A stretch of 64,000 nucleotides of DNA from Peribacillus frigoritolerans (GTDB lineage: Bacteria; Bacillota; Bacilli; Bacillales; DSM-1321): contig JAUPFL010000001.1 of the NCBI GenBank assembly GCA_030562215.1, forward strand, positions 2,530,501 through 2,594,500. Reading direction: 5' to 3'. The notes under the pieces were generated by a model. The model had not been told where the DNA came from and searched no databases. It was given only the letters and a program-made list of their open reading frames with translations. A program made the position numbers and the translations under genes. Position 1 is the stretch's first letter. Every line of letters begins with the position of its first letter. Below are positions 10,126 through 61,535 of this stretch, in pieces.

Positions 10126-11796
10126 TTATTGGACTTCCATGATGATCGGCAGGATCATTGGACGGCGTTTAGTTTTTTCATATAGAAATGGAGATAAAGT
10201 GTCTGTAATTTCATTTTTAATTTCAGACCATTGTGTAGTTTTGCGATCCATCACTTTATTTAAATGCTTTGTGATCAAGGATTGAGCATCGCTGATAAGG
10301 TCTCCGGATTCCCTCATATAAACAAATCCGCGTGAGATGATGTCAGGACCGGATGCAATTTTGAATTCCTTCATATTGATGCTGACAACAACAACGACAA
10401 GGCCTTCCTCGGAAAGAATCCGACGATCACGGAGAACGATATTACCGATATCCCCAATGCCGCTTCCATCGATATAAACTGAACCTGAAGGGATTTTACC
10501 AGCGATTTGAGCTGTGTTTTCACTTAAGGATAGAACTTCACCATTATCCATGATAAAGCAATTTTCTTCCGGAACACCGCAATCGACTGCATGGCGGGCA
10601 TGCAGTTTTTGCATACGGTATTCACCATGGATTGGCATGAAGAATTTTGGTTTTATCAAACGAAGCATTAGCTTTTGTTCCTGCTGTCCGCCATGTCCTG
10701 ATGTATGAATGTCATTCAAAGGACCTGAAATGACGTCTGCTCCTGCACGATATAATTGATTGATCGTTCTGGAAACACTGATTGTATTACCTGGGATGGG
10801 TGAAGATGAAAATACTACCGTATCACCAGGAATGATTTGAATTTGACGGTGAGTGCCATTCGCTATGCGCGATAGGGCTGCCATTGGTTCACCTTGGCTG
10901 CCTGTACAAAGGATGGTTACTTTATTCGCAGGCATACGATTCAATTGCTGTACATCAATAAATGTATCTTTAGGCGCTACGATATAACCAAGGTCTTGTC
11001 CAATTGATATGGCTGAATCCATGCTTCGGCCAAAAACGGCTATTTTACGGCCGTTAGCCACGGCTGCTTCCACAACTTGCTGAAGGCGATGGATGTTCGA
11101 TGCAAACGTTGCAAAAATAATCCGGCCGTCAACCTTACGGAAAATGTCTTGAATGGTATCGCCGACACGGCTTTCGGACATAGTAAAGTTCTGCACTTCA
11201 CTATTGGTGCTATCCGAGAGTAAGCACAATACACCTTCTTTACCGATTTCAGCCATTTTGGTCAGGTTTGCTGGCTCGCCCACTGGTGTGAAGTCGAATT
11301 TAAAATCACCAGTATGGACAATTTGTCCAGGTGGGGTTTTAACAACGATTCCATATGAGTCAGGGATACTGTGAGTTGTTCGGAAGAAAGAGACGGACGT
11401 TTTCCGGAACTTGATCACTTCATCTTCACTGATTTCAATCATGGTTGTCTGGCGTAAAAGGCCGTGTTCTTCCAATTTATTACGAAGCAGTCCAAGTGCA
11501 AGCTTTCCGCCGTATACAGGGACATTCACTTTTCTAAGTAAATAAGGAATTCCGCCAATATGGTCTTCATGACCATGGGTAATGAAAACACCTTTAATTT
11601 TATCTACATTTTTCTCTAAATAGCTGTAATCTGGAATTACATAGTCAATACCGAGAAGTTCATCTTCAGGAAATTTAATTCCAGCATCAATGATGATGAT
11701 TTCATCTTGAAACTGAACAGCATATGTGTTCTTACCGATTTCGCCTAAACCGCCCAGGGCGAATACAGCTGTTTGATCGTTTTTTACAAATTTCAT
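10126..11796 (-). CDS. rnjA: Ribonuclease J1
   Basis: 556 residues, full length and intact, one of the few long genes here without a frame break. The metallo-beta-lactamase/beta-CASP nuclease core shows [17 protein letters not shown] (zinc ligands), HSIPDSYG, and VHTGDFKFD; beta-CASP motifs follow ([10 protein letters not shown], and SGHGGQQE near residue 368). RNase J1 has 5'-to-3' exo- and endonuclease activity and works in mRNA decay and rRNA maturation. It lies four bases downstream of rpoY, so the two are co-transcribed leftwards. In B. subtilis the SR1P-GapA complex stimulates RNase J1, and SR1 is encoded at 23.3 kb in this window. Confidence 0.97.
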
Positions 11797-17285: not shown

Positions 17286-18261
17286 ATGGCTCAATTGACG
17301 ATGATTCAAGCAATTACAGAAGCATTACGTACAGAACTTAAAAATGACGAGAATGTACTCGTTTTTGGGGAAGATGTAGGTCTTAATGGAGGAGTTTTCC
17401 GTGCAACGGAAAATCTTCAAAAAGAATTCGGTGAAGATCGTGTATTCGATACACCTCTTGCTGAATCTGGAATCGGTGGATTAGCGGTCGGTCTTTCTTT
17501 ACAAGGTTTCCGTCCTGTTCCTGAAATTCAATTCTTTGGGTTTGTATATGAAGTGATGGATTCTGTAAGCGGTCAGCTTGCTCGTATGCGCTACCGTTCA
17601 GGCGGACGTTACAGTGCACCGGTTACCATTCGCTCACCTTTTGGGGGCGGAGTGCATACTCGGAAATGCACGCTGATAGCTTAGAAGGTTTAATGGCTCA
17701 GCAACCAGGGTTAAAGGTAGTTATCCCTTCCACTCCTTACGATGCAAAAGGCTTATTGATTTCAGCGATTCGTGATAATGACCCTGTCATTTTCCTTGAG
17801 CACATGAAATTATACCGTTCTTTCCGTCAGGAAGTTCCTGAAGAAGAATACACAATTCCATTAGGAAAAGCGGATGTGAAAAGAGAAGGAACGGATTTAT
17901 CCATTATTACGTATGGTGCGATGGTGCAGGAATCCATTAAGGCAGCTGAGGAATTGGCTAAGGATGGTCATTCCGTCGAAGTGGTCGACTTACGGACTGT
18001 ATCTCCATTGGACATCGATACAATCATTGCTTCTGTAGAAAAAACAGGACGCGCTATCGTTGTTCAAGAAGCACAAAAGCAAGCTGGTATAGCAGCGAAT
18101 GTCGTAGCGGAAATTAACGAACGTGCCATTTTGAGCTTGGATGCTCCAGTACTGCGCGTGGCGGCAGCTGATACGGTATTCCCGTTTTCACAAGCTGAAA
18201 CAGTATGGCTCCTAATTATAAAGACATTATTGAAACGGCGACTAAAGTCTTGAAGTTTTAA
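17286..18261 (+). CDS. pdhB: Pyruvate dehydrogenase E1 beta (two frameshifts)
   Basis: E1 beta subunit, 325 residues when repaired. Conserved parts include [38 protein letters not shown] and [15 protein letters not shown]. It starts three bases after pdhA. One C is missing near 17661 (ACTCGG; repaired GVHTPEMHADS) and one near 18208 (CTCCTAAT; repaired [18 protein letters not shown]), taking the end to TAA at 18261. Both are single losses from short C runs in an essential-type gene, so errors are likelier than mutation. Confidence 0.95.
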
Positions 18262-21732: not shown

Positions 21733-22558
21733 ATGATAAACAAAGTAGTAGCATTATTTACATTTGTATCATTTTTATTGATGGCTTGTAATGACCCGAG
21801 TTCCGGTCAAACTGAAAATGAGAATGAAAAAAGTGTGGAAACGGCGACAACGGTCCAAGATGAAAGCCAGCAAGAGAAAAATTTGAAAAAGAAACGTCAC
21901 AAACAATTGGCGAAGGGAATGTAAAGGCGGAATATCGGGTGGATAAAGAGAATTGGTCATTTAAACCGATTGGGGATGCAAATCCGAAAGTTGTGCTGCT
22001 AACATTTGATGATGCACCTGATAAATATTCCCTTGCAATCGCCCAAACCCTGAAGCGACTTGAAGTACCTGCGATATTTTTCGTGAACGGTCACTTTCTT
22101 GAAAATGATGAAAATAAAGCGGTGCTGAAAGAAATTCATGAAATGGGTTTTCCTATCGGCAATCATACGTATTCCCATGTTAATTTAAAAGAGTTGAACG
22201 AAAAGGAACAAGAACGGGAAATCGTAAAATTGAACAATTTGGTTGAGGGAATAATAGGGGTACGCCCTAAGTACTTCAGGGCGCCATTTGGATCGAATAC
22301 CGAGCATTCAAAAAAGTCGCTGAGAAAGAAAAAATGTTGGTCATGAATTGGACTTACGGATATGACTGGGAAAAAGAGTATCAGGATAAAAAGGCTTTAA
22401 CGGAAATCATGTTGAACAGCCCTTATTTAGGAAATGGTGCGAACTTACTGATGCATGACCGGAAATGGACGAGTGAAGCGATAGAGGATATCGTGAAAGG
22501 TTTTCAAAAGAAAGGCTATGAGATCCTTGATCCCAAATTAATTGAAACGCCTGCATGA
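21733..22558 (+). CDS. Lipoprotein polysaccharide deacetylase (two frameshifts)
   Basis: NodB-type deacetylase, 275 residues when repaired. Signal peptide with lipobox LMAC at about residue 19, a charged linker, then the catalytic domain: LTFDDAP (motif 1), HTYSH (metal histidines), FRAPFGS (motif 3) and LMHD near the end. TFDDAP keeps both aspartates. It is likely anchored outside the membrane and deacetylates peptidoglycan or a similar polymer. Single A's are missing near 21888 (AAAAATTTG) and near 22315 (CAAAAAAGTCG; repaired SKKVAEKEKMLVMNW). The ATG at 21733 follows CGGAGG. Confidence 0.8.
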
Positions 22559-23272: not shown

Positions 23273-23283
23273 TATGTTATACT
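23273..23283 (+). promoter_or_regulatory. CcpN operator 1 of SR1
   Basis: TATGTTATACT matches the CcpN consensus as I recall it (TRTGHYATAYW) at all 11 positions. It lies just upstream of the SR1 -35 box. Confidence 0.7.
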
Positions 23284-23290
23284 TTTTAGC

Positions 23291-23319
23291 TTGAAATAAT
23301 AAATGTGTTATATTATAAT
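23291..23319 (+). promoter_or_regulatory. SR1 promoter
   Basis: TTGAAA (23291-23296), 17-base spacer, TATAAT (23314-23319): near-consensus sigma-A promoter. Confidence 0.8.
23304..23314 (+). promoter_or_regulatory. CcpN operator 2 of SR1
   Basis: TGTGTTATATT, a second full match to TRTGHYATAYW, 31 bases (about three helical turns) from the first and overlapping the -10 box. Confidence 0.7.
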
Positions 23320-23322
23320 TCA

Positions 23323-23338
23323 TTTAAAGCGGTTACAT
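23323..23338 (+). promoter_or_regulatory. CcpA cre site at the SR1 start point
   Basis: TTTAAAGCGGTTACAT fits WTGNAARCGNWWWCAW at 15 of 16 positions. It covers the expected transcription start. Confidence 0.65.
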
Positions 23339-23380
23339 TACGTCAATAATGCATACAATATAGGGGAAGGGGTTGTAAAA

Positions 23381-23506
23381 ATGGGAACTATCGTATGTCA
23401 AACTTGCAATAGCACGATTGAACATTTTGAAGATGAGAAAGTAAGTGTACTATATACACACAATCACAACTGCCAATGCTGTGATACAGCTGCCTCTGAT
23501 AAATAA
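23381..23506 (+). CDS. sr1P: GapA-binding peptide SR1P
   Basis: 41 residues, starting MGTIVCQTCNSTIEHFEDEK, with paired cysteines near both ends (CQTC; CQCC). The N-terminal 20 residues closely follow B. subtilis SR1P, which binds glyceraldehyde-3-phosphate dehydrogenase GapA, stabilises its mRNA and promotes GapA's effect on RNase J1. I chose the ATG at 23381, behind AGGGGAAGGGG; an upstream extension would run into the promoter. Confidence 0.85.
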   Translation: MGTIVCQTCNSTIEHFEDEKVSVLYTHNHNCQCCDTAASDK

Positions 23507-23539
23507 ATGAAAAAAGGATTTTAAGATTAATAGAATGTA

Positions 23540-23577
23540 AGGGTGTTTCAGGATTGTAACCTGGAGCACCCTTTTTA
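23540..23577 (+). terminator. SR1 terminator
   Basis: GGGTGTTTCAGG pairs with CCTGGAGCACCC (twelve pairs allowing G-U), then five T. Confidence 0.85.
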
Positions 23578-23651: not shown

Positions 23652-25109
23652 TCAATTTTTTATGATGCGTAAATGTTTTATTTCTGGGTCCTCAGGGCCT
23701 TGAACCGGAAGGCCGGCCTCGATGTTTTTCCGGATGTAATTGATATTATCTTCAGTAATCAGTTCACCTGGAATGAAAATCGGGATTCCAGGCGGGTAAA
23801 CCATGATGAATTCAGCGCTAATTTTGCCGACGGATTCCTCAATGGGAACCACTTCGGTTTCTGCATAAAATGCCTCCCTGGGTGATAAAGCCAGCGGTGG
23901 TGTATCAGGAAGCAGGACTTCGATCTTTTCATGTTCAGCCGCCATTTCCTTAAACTCATCCGCTAAGTCTCTAAGGGCAGCGATCAGCAGGTCCGCTTCT
24001 GTTTTTGTGTCTCCAGGTGTTATCAGGCAAAGGATATTGTACAAGTCTGAAAGTTCCACTTCGATATTATGCTTTTCACGAAGCCATTTCTCAACGTCGT
24101 ATCCGGTAATATTCAATTCCTTGATGGATATGATCAATTTTGTCGGATCATAACTAAAGGCTGCCTCGCTCTCGAGAATTTCGCTGCCGACGCAGTAAAG
24201 GTAAGGAATCTCATTAACGGCCTCACGGATATACCCTGCGAGATTGATCGCTTCATCGATCATTTCCCTGCCTACCGTCGCAAGTTGTCTTCTAGCCGTA
24301 TCCAGGGAAGCTAGAAGGATATAGGAGGTTGAGGTGGTTGTGAGCATGCTCAATATGGCTTGAACACGATTTGCGGAAACCAATCCAGTCTTAACATTCA
24401 ATATGGAACTTCCCGTTAGTGAACCGCCCAGTTTATGAACACTAGTTGCAGCCATGTCTGCTCCAGCCTGCATGGCTGACATCGGCAAGTCCTCATGGAA
24501 GTGTATATGGACACCATGCGCTTCATCTACGAGTACTGGGATTTGGTGGGAATGAGCAACTTCCACTATTTTTTGCAAATCAGCCGAAATGCCGAAATAG
24601 GTGGGATTGATGACAAGCAATCCTTTTGCATCGCTATGTTCCCTTAAAGTTTTTTCAACGGCATCGACGGTGATTCCGTGTGAGATGCCCAAATCTTTGT
24701 CTATTTCAGGATTGATGAAAATGGGAACAGCTCCGGAAAATACAATGGCAGACATTACGGATTTATGTACATTCCTTGGGACGATGATTTTGTCCCCAGG
24801 TCCGCAGACTGTCATGACCATCGTCATGATTGCTCCACTTGTTCCTTGAACGGAAAAGAATGTGTGATCTGCCCCAAAAGCTTCAGCGGCAAGATCCTGA
24901 GCTTGTTTGATGATCCCCTTTGGCTGATGGAGATCATCGAGTGGAGCGATATTGATTAAATCTATCGATAATGCATTTTCTCCAATGAAATTACGGAAAT
25001 CAGCGTCCATTCCTTTTCCTTTTTTATGACCCGGAATATGAAATTGAACGGGATTTCTTTTTGCATGCTGTAATAAGGCAGTGTATAAGGGTGTTTCATT
25101 CTGTGACAA
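23652..25109 (-). CDS. speA: Arginine decarboxylase
   Basis: 485 residues, intact. PLP-dependent Orn/Lys/Arg decarboxylase of the aspartate-aminotransferase fold. It has FHIPGHKKGKGM, FSVQGTSGA, VDEAHGVH (PLP aspartate) and the lysine in TSVHKLGGSL. In B. subtilis SpeA makes agmatine for spermidine. I start it at the TTG at 25109 (LSQNETPLYT, aligned with the B. subtilis start and nine bases after AGGGGC); a frame 40 codons longer exists but has no ribosome site. Confidence 0.93.
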   Translation of the reverse strand: MSQNETPLYTALLQHAKRNPVQFHIPGHKKGKGMDADFRNFIGENALSIDLINIAPLDDLHQPKGIIKQAQDLAAEAFGADHTFFSVQGTSGAIMTMVMTVCGPGDKIIVPRNVHKSVMSAIVFSGAVPIFINPEIDKDLGISHGITVDAVEKTLREHSDAKGLLVINPTYFGISADLQKIVEVAHSHQIPVLVDEAHGVHIHFHEDLPMSAMQAGADMAATSVHKLGGSLTGSSILNVKTGLVSANRVQAILSMLTTTSTSYILLASLDTARRQLATVGREMIDEAINLAGYIREAVNEIPYLYCVGSEILESEAAFSYDPTKLIISIKELNITGYDVEKWLREKHNIEVELSDLYNILCLITPGDTKTEADLLIAALRDLADEFKEMAAEHEKIEVLLPDTPPLALSPREAFYAETEVVPIEESVGKISAEFIMVYPPGIPIFIPGELITEDNINYIRKNIEAGLPVQGPEDPEIKHLRIIKN

Positions 25110-25516
25110 TTCTTTGTGGCCCCTTTTCAGTAAAATAGGTACGAAATATGGGAGGTTATACTCCCTTTCTATTAATGATCGTATGTTTCTCCGATTCCAT
25201 TCAAATGGTTGTAAGCTGTGGATAGACATAAAACATATGAATTATAGCACGTCTTATAATAAATGCCTAGTGACTTTAATGTCCTGACTTAAACAATTTA
25301 TATATGTCTTTGTTGTTAAGGAACCCAATAAAATTATCAGCAGTTTATAAATATCCATTTTCCTAGTATTTACTGGATTTACTCAAGAATTCTTCTTTTT
25401 CTATTGTATGTGTGAGTTAAAAATTGAACGGGTAAACAATATTTGCCATAATGAAGCTAATGATTTGGAATCAGCTAAATAAACTTAACCAGAAAATGAA
25501 AAGGGAGATGAGGAGT
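25110..25516. other. Divergent spacer speA / nitronate monooxygenase
   Basis: About 400 AT-rich bases. It must hold both divergent promoters. A TATAAT reads leftwards near 25253-25258 and may serve speA. No conserved RNA was seen. Confidence 0.4.
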
Positions 25517-26869: not shown

Positions 26870-27125
26870 GAAAAAGATAAAGGCAGTGACGAAGAAGAGT
26901 ACCTTAATGATGTTCTGCAGAGAGCCAGTGGTTGCTGAAAACTGGTGAACGAATTTAAGCGAATGGACTTCCGAGCCCCAAACCGAAACGGATGTACGGA
27001 GTAGGCTTTGGCGATTATCTCATCGTTAATGGAGATAGGCATGTTAATGCCGTAAAGTGAGCTAATTTAGCTAATTAAGGTGGTACCACGGGTTCCTCGT
27101 CCTTTGGATGAGGGCCCTTTTGCGT
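26870..27125 (+). ncRNA. T-box leader 1, tRNA-Trp specific
   Basis: T-box riboswitch. The AGAGAGCCAGTGG / GCTGAAAACTGG stem I apex is near 26920, the specifier region GAATGGAC holds UGG (Trp), and the T-box AAGGTGGTACCACGG is at 27077-27091. A terminator follows (GGGTTCCTCGTCC / GGATGAGGGCCC, then TTTT). Uncharged tRNA-Trp should pair and allow read-through. The specifier call is by position and pattern. Confidence 0.88.
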
Positions 27126-27129
27126 TTTT

Positions 27130-27420
27130 ATGGAAATGATAATTAAATCTATGAATGAGAGTAGTAATCTTTTTAGATGCGTCACAGAGAGCCGGAATAG
27201 GTGGAAACCGGTACGATATAAGAAGATGAATGGACTCATGAGTGGTTTCTTGAAAATAAGTAGGGAAACTCGGCTGCCACCGTTAAAGGGTAATCGCAAG
27301 AATTTTTCATTCTTGCTTGAGAGGAAAAATGATGCATTTTTCCAACTTGAGGTGGCACCGCGGTATACCGTCCTCTGCAGGCACATATTTGTGTTTGCGG
27401 GGGATTTTTTTATTGGAATT
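27130..27420 (+). ncRNA. T-box leader 2, tRNA-Trp specific
   Basis: A second full T-box directly follows the first. AGAGAGCCGG / GGTGGAAACCGG is at 27187-27214, the specifier is again in GAATGGACTCATGAG (UGG), and the T-box GAGGTGGCACCGCGG is at 27349-27363. Its terminator is GCAGGCACA / TGTGTTTGC with a GGGGGATTTTTT tail. Two T-boxes in series should give tighter control. Confidence 0.88.
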
Positions 27421-51426: not shown

Positions 51427-53296
51427 GTGAGTACGTACGCTAATAAAAAAGGATTTGGCGCTACGATTTGGGATTATCTGACGACGGTAGACCATAAGAA
51501 AATCGCCATTTTATATCTTATTTCTGGCGGGTTATTCTTTGTAATCGGCGGTTTGGAAGCGATGTTTATCCGTATCCAGCTTGCAATCCCAAATAATGAC
51601 TTCGTAAGTGCCGGATTTTATAATGAAATATTGACCATGCACGGTACGACTATGATATTTCTGGCAGCCATGCCATTGGTGTTTGCTGTAATGAATGCGG
51701 TTGTACCCTTACAGATAGGGGCACGTGATGTCGCGTTCCCATTTTTGAATTCGTTAGGTTTTTGGTTGTTTTTCTTTGGAGGAGTCTTTCTGAATCTTTC
51801 ATGGTTTTTAGGGGGGCTCCTGATGCAGGATGGACATCATATGCATCACTTTCCTGCACTCCGAAGGCCATGGTATTGATTTTTACGTCCTGGGATTACA
51901 GATATCGGGATTGGGAACATTAATTGCGGGGATCAATTTCCTTGTAACCATTATCAATATGCGTACGCCTGGTATGACATATATGCGTATGCCGCTGTTT
52001 ACATGGTCAACTTTCGTTGTTTCCGCATTGATATTATTCGCTTTTCCTCCGCTTACGGTAGGATTGGTGTTGATGATGTTCGACAGGATGTTCGGCTCGA
52101 ATTTCTTTGATGTAGCAGCTGGCGGGAATACGATCATTTGGGAGCATTTATTCTGGATATTCGGTCACCCGGAGGTATATATCCTAATCCTTCCTGCTTT
52201 CGGTATTTTTTCCGAAATTTTCGCTACCTTTTCAAGAAAAAGATTATTCGGATATTCATCGATGGTATTTGCAACCGTTTTAATCGGTTTCTTAGGTTTC
52301 ATGGTTTGGGCGCATCACATGTTTACCACTGGTTTAGGACCTATCGCGAATGCAATCTTTGCCGTCGCTACCATGGCTATCGCAGTACCGACAGGTATTA
52401 AGATATTCAACTGGATCTTTACGATGTGGGGAGGAAGCGTCAAGTTCACGGTGCCGATGCTTTATGCAGTTGCCTTTATTCCTTCCTTTACCATGGGTGG
52501 CGTGACAGGTATCATGAACGCATCCGCTCCTGCTGATTACCAGTTCCACGACAGCTATTTCGTTGTTGCCCATTTCCACTATGTAATCGTCGGTGGGGTT
52601 GTATTGGGATTATTGGCTGGTATCACATTCTATTGGCCGAAGATGTTTGGAACGATGTTAAGCGAGAAATTGGGGAAAGTCACATTTTGGACGTTCTTGA
52701 TCGGTTTCCATTTAACGTTCTTCATTCAACATTTCTTAGGTCTAATGGGTATGCCTCGCCGCGTATTCACGTTCTTGGACAATCAAGGACTCAATACGGG
52801 TAATATGATCAGTACAGTCGGTGCCTTCTTGATGGCTTTTGCAGTCATCGTCATGGTAATCAATATCATCATGACTTCAGCGAAAAACGAAAAAGTCGGC
52901 AATGATCCTTGGGGAGACGGCCGTACACTGGAATGGGCCATTCCATCACCGCCGCCGTTTTATAATTTTAAACAACTGCCGCTTGTCCGCGGATTAGATC
53001 CTTACTGGGTTGAGAAAATGGAAGGGAAAAAGGAAATGACTCCTGCAGAACCACTGGGGGATATCCATATGCCTAATTCATCCATTCTGCCTTTAACGAT
53101 TTCTTTCGGTTTATTCGTAGCCGCATTCGGTGCTCTATATAATATGGATGATAAGACATGGACACTGCCTATAATCATTGTCGGGCTTTTGATTACATTC
53201 GTTTCAATGTTAATCCGTTCCGTTAAAGATGATCATGGATTCCATATTCATAAAGAAGACCTTATGGACGATAAAGACAAGGGAGGTAAGGCATAA
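51427..53296 (+). CDS. ctaD: Cytochrome caa3 oxidase subunit I (two frameshifts)
   Basis: 623 residues when repaired; haem-copper oxidase core with 12 helices plus a C-terminal extension. It has TMHGTTM (haem a His), WIFGHPEVYILILPAFG (CuB His and the cross-linked Tyr), VWAHHMFTTG (CuB histidines) and AHFHYVIVGG (haem ligands). One G is missing in the G-run near 51810 and one C near 51854; adding both gives GGAPDAGWTSYASLSLHSEG. GTG start behind AAGGAGG; the stop overlaps ctaE by one base. Confidence 0.96.
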
Positions 53297-61147: not shown

Positions 61148-61255
61148 TTAAACCTCTCCTAACTAACTTATTATTCATTACTTTATCATTATCCCTCATA
61201 AAAGAGAAGGACAACTTCATTGACGAATCATGACAAAGAAAAGTGGTTTATGAAT

Positions 61256-61287
61256 AAAAAAAAGCCCTGCAAAAATATGCAGGGTCC
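61256..61287 (-). terminator. Orphan terminator facing left
   Basis: CCCTGCA / TGCAGGG with eight T or more on the minus strand. No minus-strand gene is known to end here. Confidence 0.6.
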
Positions 61288-61346
61288 TTCTATGTCTAAC
61301 TAAGGACCAGAAGGCAAAGGGAGAGGAGAAACCGGAGGAAGAACTT

Positions 61347-61535
61347 ATGGGGAAACGTAAGCCTTCTCCGCGGTTGGCAACAACACCTAAAAAGGAATGT
61401 TGTTATTCACATTATTGCCAAAAACCACTTTATTATTCAAAATGTAAAAGATTTATAAAAAGAATGGATATCTTCTATCCATGGTACGAAATGATAAGTT
61501 CTTTTCATCTTGGAAATGAAGCCAAATGGGTTTAA
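61347..61535 (+). CDS. Possible small basic cysteine-containing protein
   Basis: 62 residues with a good ribosome site (CCGGAGGAAG) before the ATG. MGKRKPSPRLATTPKKECCY, then YCQKPLYYSKCKRFIKRM. Basic, four cysteines. No family recognised; it may be a short orphan gene or chance. Confidence 0.35.
   Translation: MGKRKPSPRLATTPKKECCYSHYCQKPLYYSKCKRFIKRMDIFYPWYEMISSFHLGNEAKWV

Follow-up and report, generated by a model that had tools for sequence, protein, structure and literature searches.

Among the dual-function RNAs of Gram-positive bacteria, SR1 has been studied in detail. Its gene, sr1, is one of the three known targets of CcpN, together with gapB and pckA, and RNase J1 is the proposed effector of SR1P-GapA in Bacillus subtilis. 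Published reports give SR1 a length of 205 nt and record SR1P "only in Bacillus and Geobacillus", in 139 species (PMC8501984, 2021), all of them in the order Bacillales (PMC8464778, 2021). In B. subtilis the cre site is placed some 260 bp upstream of psr1 (PMC8464778, PMC7430163), and the role of CcpA at sr1, exerted from that distant site, is described as minor (PMC8464778). The published SR1P model is a structure prediction checked by CD, and the section that presents it names no metal (PMC8152036).

The sr1 locus of a Peribacillus

The sr1 gene of a Peribacillus, a soil bacterium allied to Bacillus, was located by sequence analysis at positions 23273-23577 of a 64,000-nucleotide stretch of genomic DNA (the window), where promoter, peptide reading frame and terminator follow one another. 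The features are as follows.

23273-23283, + strand: CcpN site I, TATGTTATACT, an exact match to TRTGHYATAYW, upstream of the -35
23291-23319, + strand: sigma-A-type promoter TTGAAA-17-TATAAT, 11/12 match, with a -10 that is invariant in 21 clade sequences
23304-23314, + strand: CcpN site II, TGTGTTATATT, an exact match to TRTGHYATAYW that touches the -10 and is invariant in 21 clade sequences
23323-23338, + strand: cre-like CcpA site, 15/16, over the expected transcription start and beginning 3 bases behind the -10
23326-23577, + strand: predicted SR1 RNA, about 252 nt, its start taken from the promoter and its end from the terminator
23381-23506, + strand: SR1P reading frame, 41 amino acids, with an SD-like GGGGAAGGGG upstream and a codon-position pattern of constraint
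23539-23573, + strand: stem of the intrinsic terminator (to 23577 with the T run), 14 pairs, -22.4 kcal/mol, z -5.6
23652-25229, - strand: speA-like Orn/Lys/Arg decarboxylase gene, convergent downstream of sr1; its matches to decarboxylase models all stay under the respective cut-offs
10126-11796, - strand: RNase J1 gene (rnjA), NCBIfam RNase_J1_RnjA 977 bits against a cut-off of 820, 11.5 kb from sr1

A preliminary description of this DNA had placed a gene for an SR1P-like peptide of 41 residues between pdhD and speA, and both the Pfam search and the gene order agree. PF13790 matches residues 1-35 of the frame at 70 bits against a cut-off of 26, and NCBIfam gave no family for it. The order of pdhD followed by sr1, convergent with speA (a name taken from gene order), is that of the SR1/SR1P locus, and a convergent speA lies downstream of the SR1P gene in 122 of the 151 SR1P loci examined, which include 82 genus representatives. 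The peptide is 90-98% identical to SR1P of named relatives, among them Peribacillus frigoritolerans, simplex, muralis and butanolivorans, and no second SR1P was found in the 5.4-Mb genome. The locus is a real, ordinary sr1 gene and a member of an already known kind, and the SR1 label is applied because locus, peptide and promoter fit, not because of the Rfam model.

With SR1/SR1P of B. subtilis the locus shares the convergence with speA, CcpN sites in the same two places, a peptide of the SR1P family and a terminator, and genes for CcpN, GapA-like and GapB-like proteins, AhrC and RNase J1 are present in the genome. Its differences are a start-site cre where the published one is far upstream, an RNA about 47 nt longer, the peptide tail THNHNCQCC and a score under the Rfam cut-off. 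The sequence elements of the first reading were accurate, but its account of a conserved control logic was overstated.

We consider it very probable that this is a Peribacillus sr1 with CcpN and probable CcpA repression, an RNA of about 252 nt, an SR1P-GapA-RNase J1 action and a zinc ribbon as its product. The analysis itself shows the sequence elements, the membership in the SR1P family, the genes of the regulators, the conservation and a predicted fold; from these we infer the repression, the transcript, the binding of GapA and zinc, and any RNA-RNA pairing. In glucose, CcpN bound to its two operators, one upstream of the -35 and one touching the -10, would keep sr1 off, and CcpA on the start-site cre would probably add to the repression. 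On a gluconeogenic carbon source, sr1 would be transcribed as an RNA of about 252 nt ending at the 14-pair terminator and would be translated into SR1P, which, by analogy with B. subtilis, is expected to bind GapA and to raise RNase J1 activity. The preliminary description had pointed to RNase J1 about 12 kb away, and that position is correct (11.5 kb), but it is a matter of gene order and not evidence for the mechanism.

The window also contains two T-box leaders in tandem (26877-27107 and 27142-27378, + strand, 140 bits each) followed by a frame that seems to resemble anthranilate synthase, a ylbH leader RNA (61255-61373, + strand, 103.5 bits) and, at 2938 (+), a zinc-ribbon-like reading frame with two C-x2-C pairs. 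Genes resembling pdhB, a deacetylase, ctaD and pckA, names assumed mostly from gene order, are each split into two overlapping frames (window 17286-18253, 21939-22558 and 51427-53296; L104/L105 for pckA). The split frames look like assembly indel errors, and the completeness of the assembly is only 87%.

CcpN sites and a cre-like site at the start

The promoter proposed in the preliminary description (TTGAAA-17-TATAAT) was recovered at 11/12, and the pattern scan returned the two exact TRTGHYATAYW matches, 31 bases apart with one at the -10, that it had reported. Site I has a conservation of 0.970 in 21 clade sequences (window included), compared with 0.589 further upstream. A lone site of this type is unremarkable, because the window holds three exact matches against 1.92 expected, the third lying at 51973 inside a ctaD-like frame. 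The sr1 pair is the only one in the 5.4-Mb genome with a gap of 10-30 bases; since the pattern read backwards, as a control, also yields one such pair genome-wide, a pair somewhere in the genome is not rare, but this one sits on the SR1P promoter.

The arrangement recurs across the order. When up to one mismatch per site was allowed in the 82 genus representatives, paired sites spaced 30-34 were found in 45 of the 59 from the order and in 0 of the 23 from outside it, compared with 0/82 and 1/82 in control stretches; at least one CcpN site was present in 12 of those 23. Paired sites at a fixed spacing thus appear to be kept only within the order, and the peptide and its cysteines appear to be kept widely. 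In one group outside the order (f68, which we guess to be Brevibacillus), the sites lie 55-56 apart in six of seven two-site loci (L089, L090, L091, L094, L097 and L145) and 77 apart in the seventh (L098). The usual spacing is about 32, and the group looks as if its upstream site had shifted by about two helical turns.

The genome that carries these operators, upstream of the -35 and at the -10, also carries a CcpN gene (equivalog model NF053704, 349 bits against a cut-off of 260), which by sequence places the locus in the CcpN regulon. AhrC, two GAPDH and PckA, the last split in two frames, are encoded as well. The gapB-like gene is preceded by two exact CcpN matches and the pckA-like gene by one, whereas the regions ahead of ccpN, ahrC and the gapA-like gene of the same genome have none; the two GAPDH are presumed to be GapA and GapB from their likeness to the B. 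subtilis sequences. As sites are present at sr1 and at the gapB-like and pckA-like genes, the three known CcpN targets look kept. Across the class, 338 of 398 genomes encode a CcpN relative at E 1e-20 or better, namely 143 of the 145 that bear SR1P (all but G464 and G484) versus 195 of the 253 others, the lists being compared by eye.

The cre-like site requires a separate reading. The preliminary description had counted a 15/16 cre over the start point as part of the control logic of B. subtilis, all of which it believed kept. The site is there, and the CcpN side of that logic, in sites and gene, stands; the placement of the cre does not, because the published site lies about 260 bp upstream. 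The window abounds in cre matches that deviate at no more than one position (33 against 16.2 expected), which would suit a resemblance that is accidental and an sr1 controlled by CcpN alone, and for this reason the window site gains weight only from conservation. Within the clade, 14 of its 16 columns are invariant (n=21). Among genera, 46 of 80 representatives have a cre-like site with up to two mismatches in the interval from -6 to +50 relative to the -10 end. Shuffles give 4.3, and the two control stretches 4 and 3, so that the site is about ten times as frequent as in the control stretches; two of the 82 representatives were dropped because they had no scored promoter, and the promoters were picked automatically, so that some are probably wrong (e.g. 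L107, L122, L149) and were counted as they fell.

The 46 loci hold 48 such matches, and for 35 of them the first base lies 10-15 bases behind the -10. The window site is offset from this common position, about one helical turn nearer the promoter than in most genera, which also speaks for accident. So do the minor, distant role published for CcpA (PMC8464778) and the one-mismatch cre sites further up in L065 (-339 and -153 from the start codon) and L077 (-307), which agree with the remote position given in the literature. These two and three other B. subtilis-like loci (L070, L071, L072) nonetheless have a start-site cre with two mismatches, and with the invariant columns and the recurrence among genera in view we regard an accidental resemblance as improbable. 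The comparisons point instead to a putative second CcpA site on sr1, at the start, widely conserved and apparently new; the literature searched, part of which was covered, yielded no description of a start-site cre at sr1 and none of SR1 in Peribacillus, a weak negative.

SR1P and its cysteines

The changed C-terminus noted at the outset (YTHNHNCQCC) is real, but it falls within a variable tail. The cysteines are far more constant: the first C-x2-C is present in all 129 distinct SR1P sequences (129/129), and a second pair, with 0-5 residues between its members, in 126/129. In the window they are Cys6-x2-Cys9 and Cys31-x2-Cys34, and the window clade is without the usual Cys28 (N at 28 in the window), which occurs in 84% of the aligned family. 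AlphaFold2 gave pLDDT 77.8 and pTM 0.48 for the window peptide (38 sequences) and 81.5 and 0.49 for a B. subtilis-like SR1P (51 sequences). Both models, with their low pTM, have strands at 2-6, 12-16 and 23-26, and that of the window adds a low-confidence C-terminal helix.

Against 350,542 PDB chains, Foldseek found no significant match for either model (best E 1.0 and 2.1), and Fur, PerR and Zur made up 19/43 and 23/26 of the weak matches, 16 and 18 of them recognised by title and 3 and 5 by reading of the entry. The SR1P profile placed Campylobacter Fur first among PDB entries (E 0.0031, from two half-matches that are each not significant alone), with RPB9 among the next (E 0.093, a contiguous 33 residues). 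With hhalign, the profile aligned to 28 Fur-family proteins at a probability of 94.5 and a score of 41.8, which none of 300 column permutations that kept the cysteines reached (maximum 29.7). Single sequences scored 27.0 (the RPB9 stretch) and 14.1-36.1 (Fur-family members) on the SR1P profile, in a comparison that covered Fur-family (28 of 29 matches found) and RPB9 sequences only. Weak Pfam matches are spread over several zinc ribbons, and FUR is absent from the 25 families listed of 53 for SR1P members.

The likeness to the Zn(Cys)4 site of Fur, PerR and Zur consists of an I-x-C-x2-C, a strand and a later (L-)Y-G-x-C-x2-C in the SR1P profile, the AlphaFold2 strands, the profile resemblance and the Foldseek resemblance, whose E-values are not significant. 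In the family profile the two cysteine pairs lie on matching strands, the second being C31-C34 in the window, where it is shifted. Unlike Fur, PerR and Zur, SR1P has no DNA-binding domain and has about 18 residues fewer between the halves. With RPB9-type and rubredoxin-like zinc ribbons it shares the 33-residue profile match and the weak Pfam matches, but their context is unrelated and their score lies below that of the Fur-family profile, one or two short RPB9 sequences having been compared.

A reading in which the cysteines bind no metal but form a redox pair or arose by chance, with the Fur likeness a convergence of short cysteine-rich motifs, would fit the good score of a single RPB9 ribbon within the Fur-family range, the scatter of the Pfam matches and the three SR1P without a second pair as defined. 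RPB9 and many of the weak Pfam matches are themselves metal sites, however, and neither the share of Fur, PerR and Zur among the Foldseek matches nor the failure of every permutation to reach the profile score favours it; we therefore hold it to be unlikely. With its paired cysteines, the three strands of the predicted fold and the Zn(Cys)4 resemblance, SR1P is probably a zinc ribbon. Because RPB9 scores inside the range of the Fur members, there is good support for the zinc ribbon but no proof that it derives from Fur. The most likely reading of SR1P is thus a small protein of the zinc-ribbon type held by four cysteines (C6, C9, C31 and C34 in the window). A zinc or metal-cysteine role for SR1P was not found in the literature searched, a weak negative given its partial coverage.

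The family reaches far. PF13790 was detected in 43/43 genomes of the family, in 325/397 sampled genomes and 118/135 genera of the order, and in 145/398 genomes across the class, 111 of these outside the order. The survey thereby widens the range of SR1P from the 139 published species. As the NCBI Bacillales is broader than the order used here, the published statement that confines SR1P to Bacillales may stand. Copy number varies in places. One genome of the same genus (G016) has three tandem SR1P copies (L049), and every copy has a pair of exactly matching CcpN sites of its own and, at the start site, a cre that deviates at two positions. Two others (G017 and G029) have four diverged paralogues away from the sr1 locus (L045-L048) that keep the cysteines, have no CcpN site and among them hold one 2-mismatch cre. 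A genome of another family (G352) has seven SR1P matches.

RNA and peptide functions of sr1

The RNA fits the published one less closely. The first reading had it about 45 bases longer than SR1, which holds against the published 205 nt (PMC8501984). The extra length is not special, however, because automatic estimates run long: they gave 217-270 nt in 13 genomes, B. subtilis-like ones included (227 and 218), and several of the automatic terminator picks behind the locus survey are doubtful. The terminator itself was correctly recognised but has 14 pairs where 12 had been reported, and several stem pairs vary yet stay paired in the 21 clade sequences.

The Rfam search that had been suggested as a check went against the SR1 model: the window RNA scored 21.8 bits on RF02376, under the gathering score of 45. 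In a run of 20 loci, the 19 others scored 38.4-224.1 bits, with 18/19 reaching the cut-off (L083, at 38.4, did not) and the B. subtilis-like L065, L070, L071, L072 and L077 at 187-224 bits, and the window's own copy (L001) had no match at E 0.01 or less. Thirteen further loci of the same genus were searched, and four reached the cut-off. None of the seven from the clade with the THNHN tail did so (L013 32.4 and L015 31.8 bits; L010, L018, L022, L024 and L026 without a match at E 1 or less), nor did two from outside that clade (L042 at 43.5 bits, L038 without a match). As scores are below the cut-off in the window and in all seven other THNHN-clade loci searched, the RNA of this clade has drifted.

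These scores would suit an sr1 that, in this Peribacillus clade, now serves chiefly as a short messenger for SR1P, with peptide and sugar control kept and ahrC pairing lost: window and 7/7 THNHN loci lie under the cut-off that 4/6 other same-genus loci pass, and only 12 of 32 columns between stop codon and terminator are invariant in the clade. The folding of the whole RNA was not better than that of shuffles (z -0.76). A pairing of the SD with the THNHN codons, present in the consensus fold, was rejected, as neither of the two 5' stretches folded more stably than shuffled sequence (z 0.55 and -0.14).

Pairing with ahrC was tested against shuffled RNA by whole-duplex energies and by the best ungapped helix, in 13 genomes each. 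The window RNA did no better than shuffles, ranking 88/100 and 62/150, respectively, against 6/100 and 136/150 in G392 and 13/100 and 3/150 in G151, B. subtilis-like controls that were weakly better but not in both tests; the best helix beat shuffles in G151 and in G227 (0/150). A helix between the right arm of the terminator (GGAGCACC) and the ahrC SD, the best in the window, was rejected, since shuffles equal it in 62/150. The duplex ranks agree with a loss of pairing, but the tests are weak, as the scatter of the two B. subtilis-like genomes in the helix test (136/150 and 3/150) indicates.

The codons tell against a loss of RNA function. Among SR1P codons whose amino acid is invariant, 27/35 also have an invariant third position, compared with 216/442 in pdhD (p 0.0014) and 25/94 in the speA tail (p 4.5e-7), with kinship of the genomes ignored in both p-values; no 40-codon window of pdhD matched the SR1P fraction (maximum 0.72, 431 windows). 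The test used 18 and 19 of the 21 THNHN-clade genomes, those with a 41-residue SR1P and readable neighbours, and pdhD and speA as its only controls. Synonymous sites in the frame therefore look constrained, and the RNA itself may still matter; it would appear that within the frame either the RNA or the choice of codons is under constraint. We regard the mRNA-only reading as a real contender that falls a little short of an even chance. For the window sr1, both functions are possible, and the peptide function is likely.

Four points are new: a cre at the start site, the wide distribution of the family, the drift of the RNA in this clade and the interpretation of SR1P as a zinc ribbon. In its boldest form, which is doubtful and put forward tentatively, SR1P would be a free-standing miniature of the Fur/PerR/Zur Zn(Cys)4 site through which the sugar-controlled SR1P-GapA-RNase J1 switch also reads zinc or thiol state, and CcpA, besides acting from the distant cre, would block transcription at the start and so put a second, conserved brake on sr1 across the order. 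Two points are thereby made testable, the metal need of SR1P for GapA binding and the action of CcpA at the start site, and either, if true, changes the reading of published SR1P and CcpA data. If Peribacillus dropped ahrC pairing but kept SR1P, the genus would show, as an experiment of nature, which of the two functions is maintained by selection.
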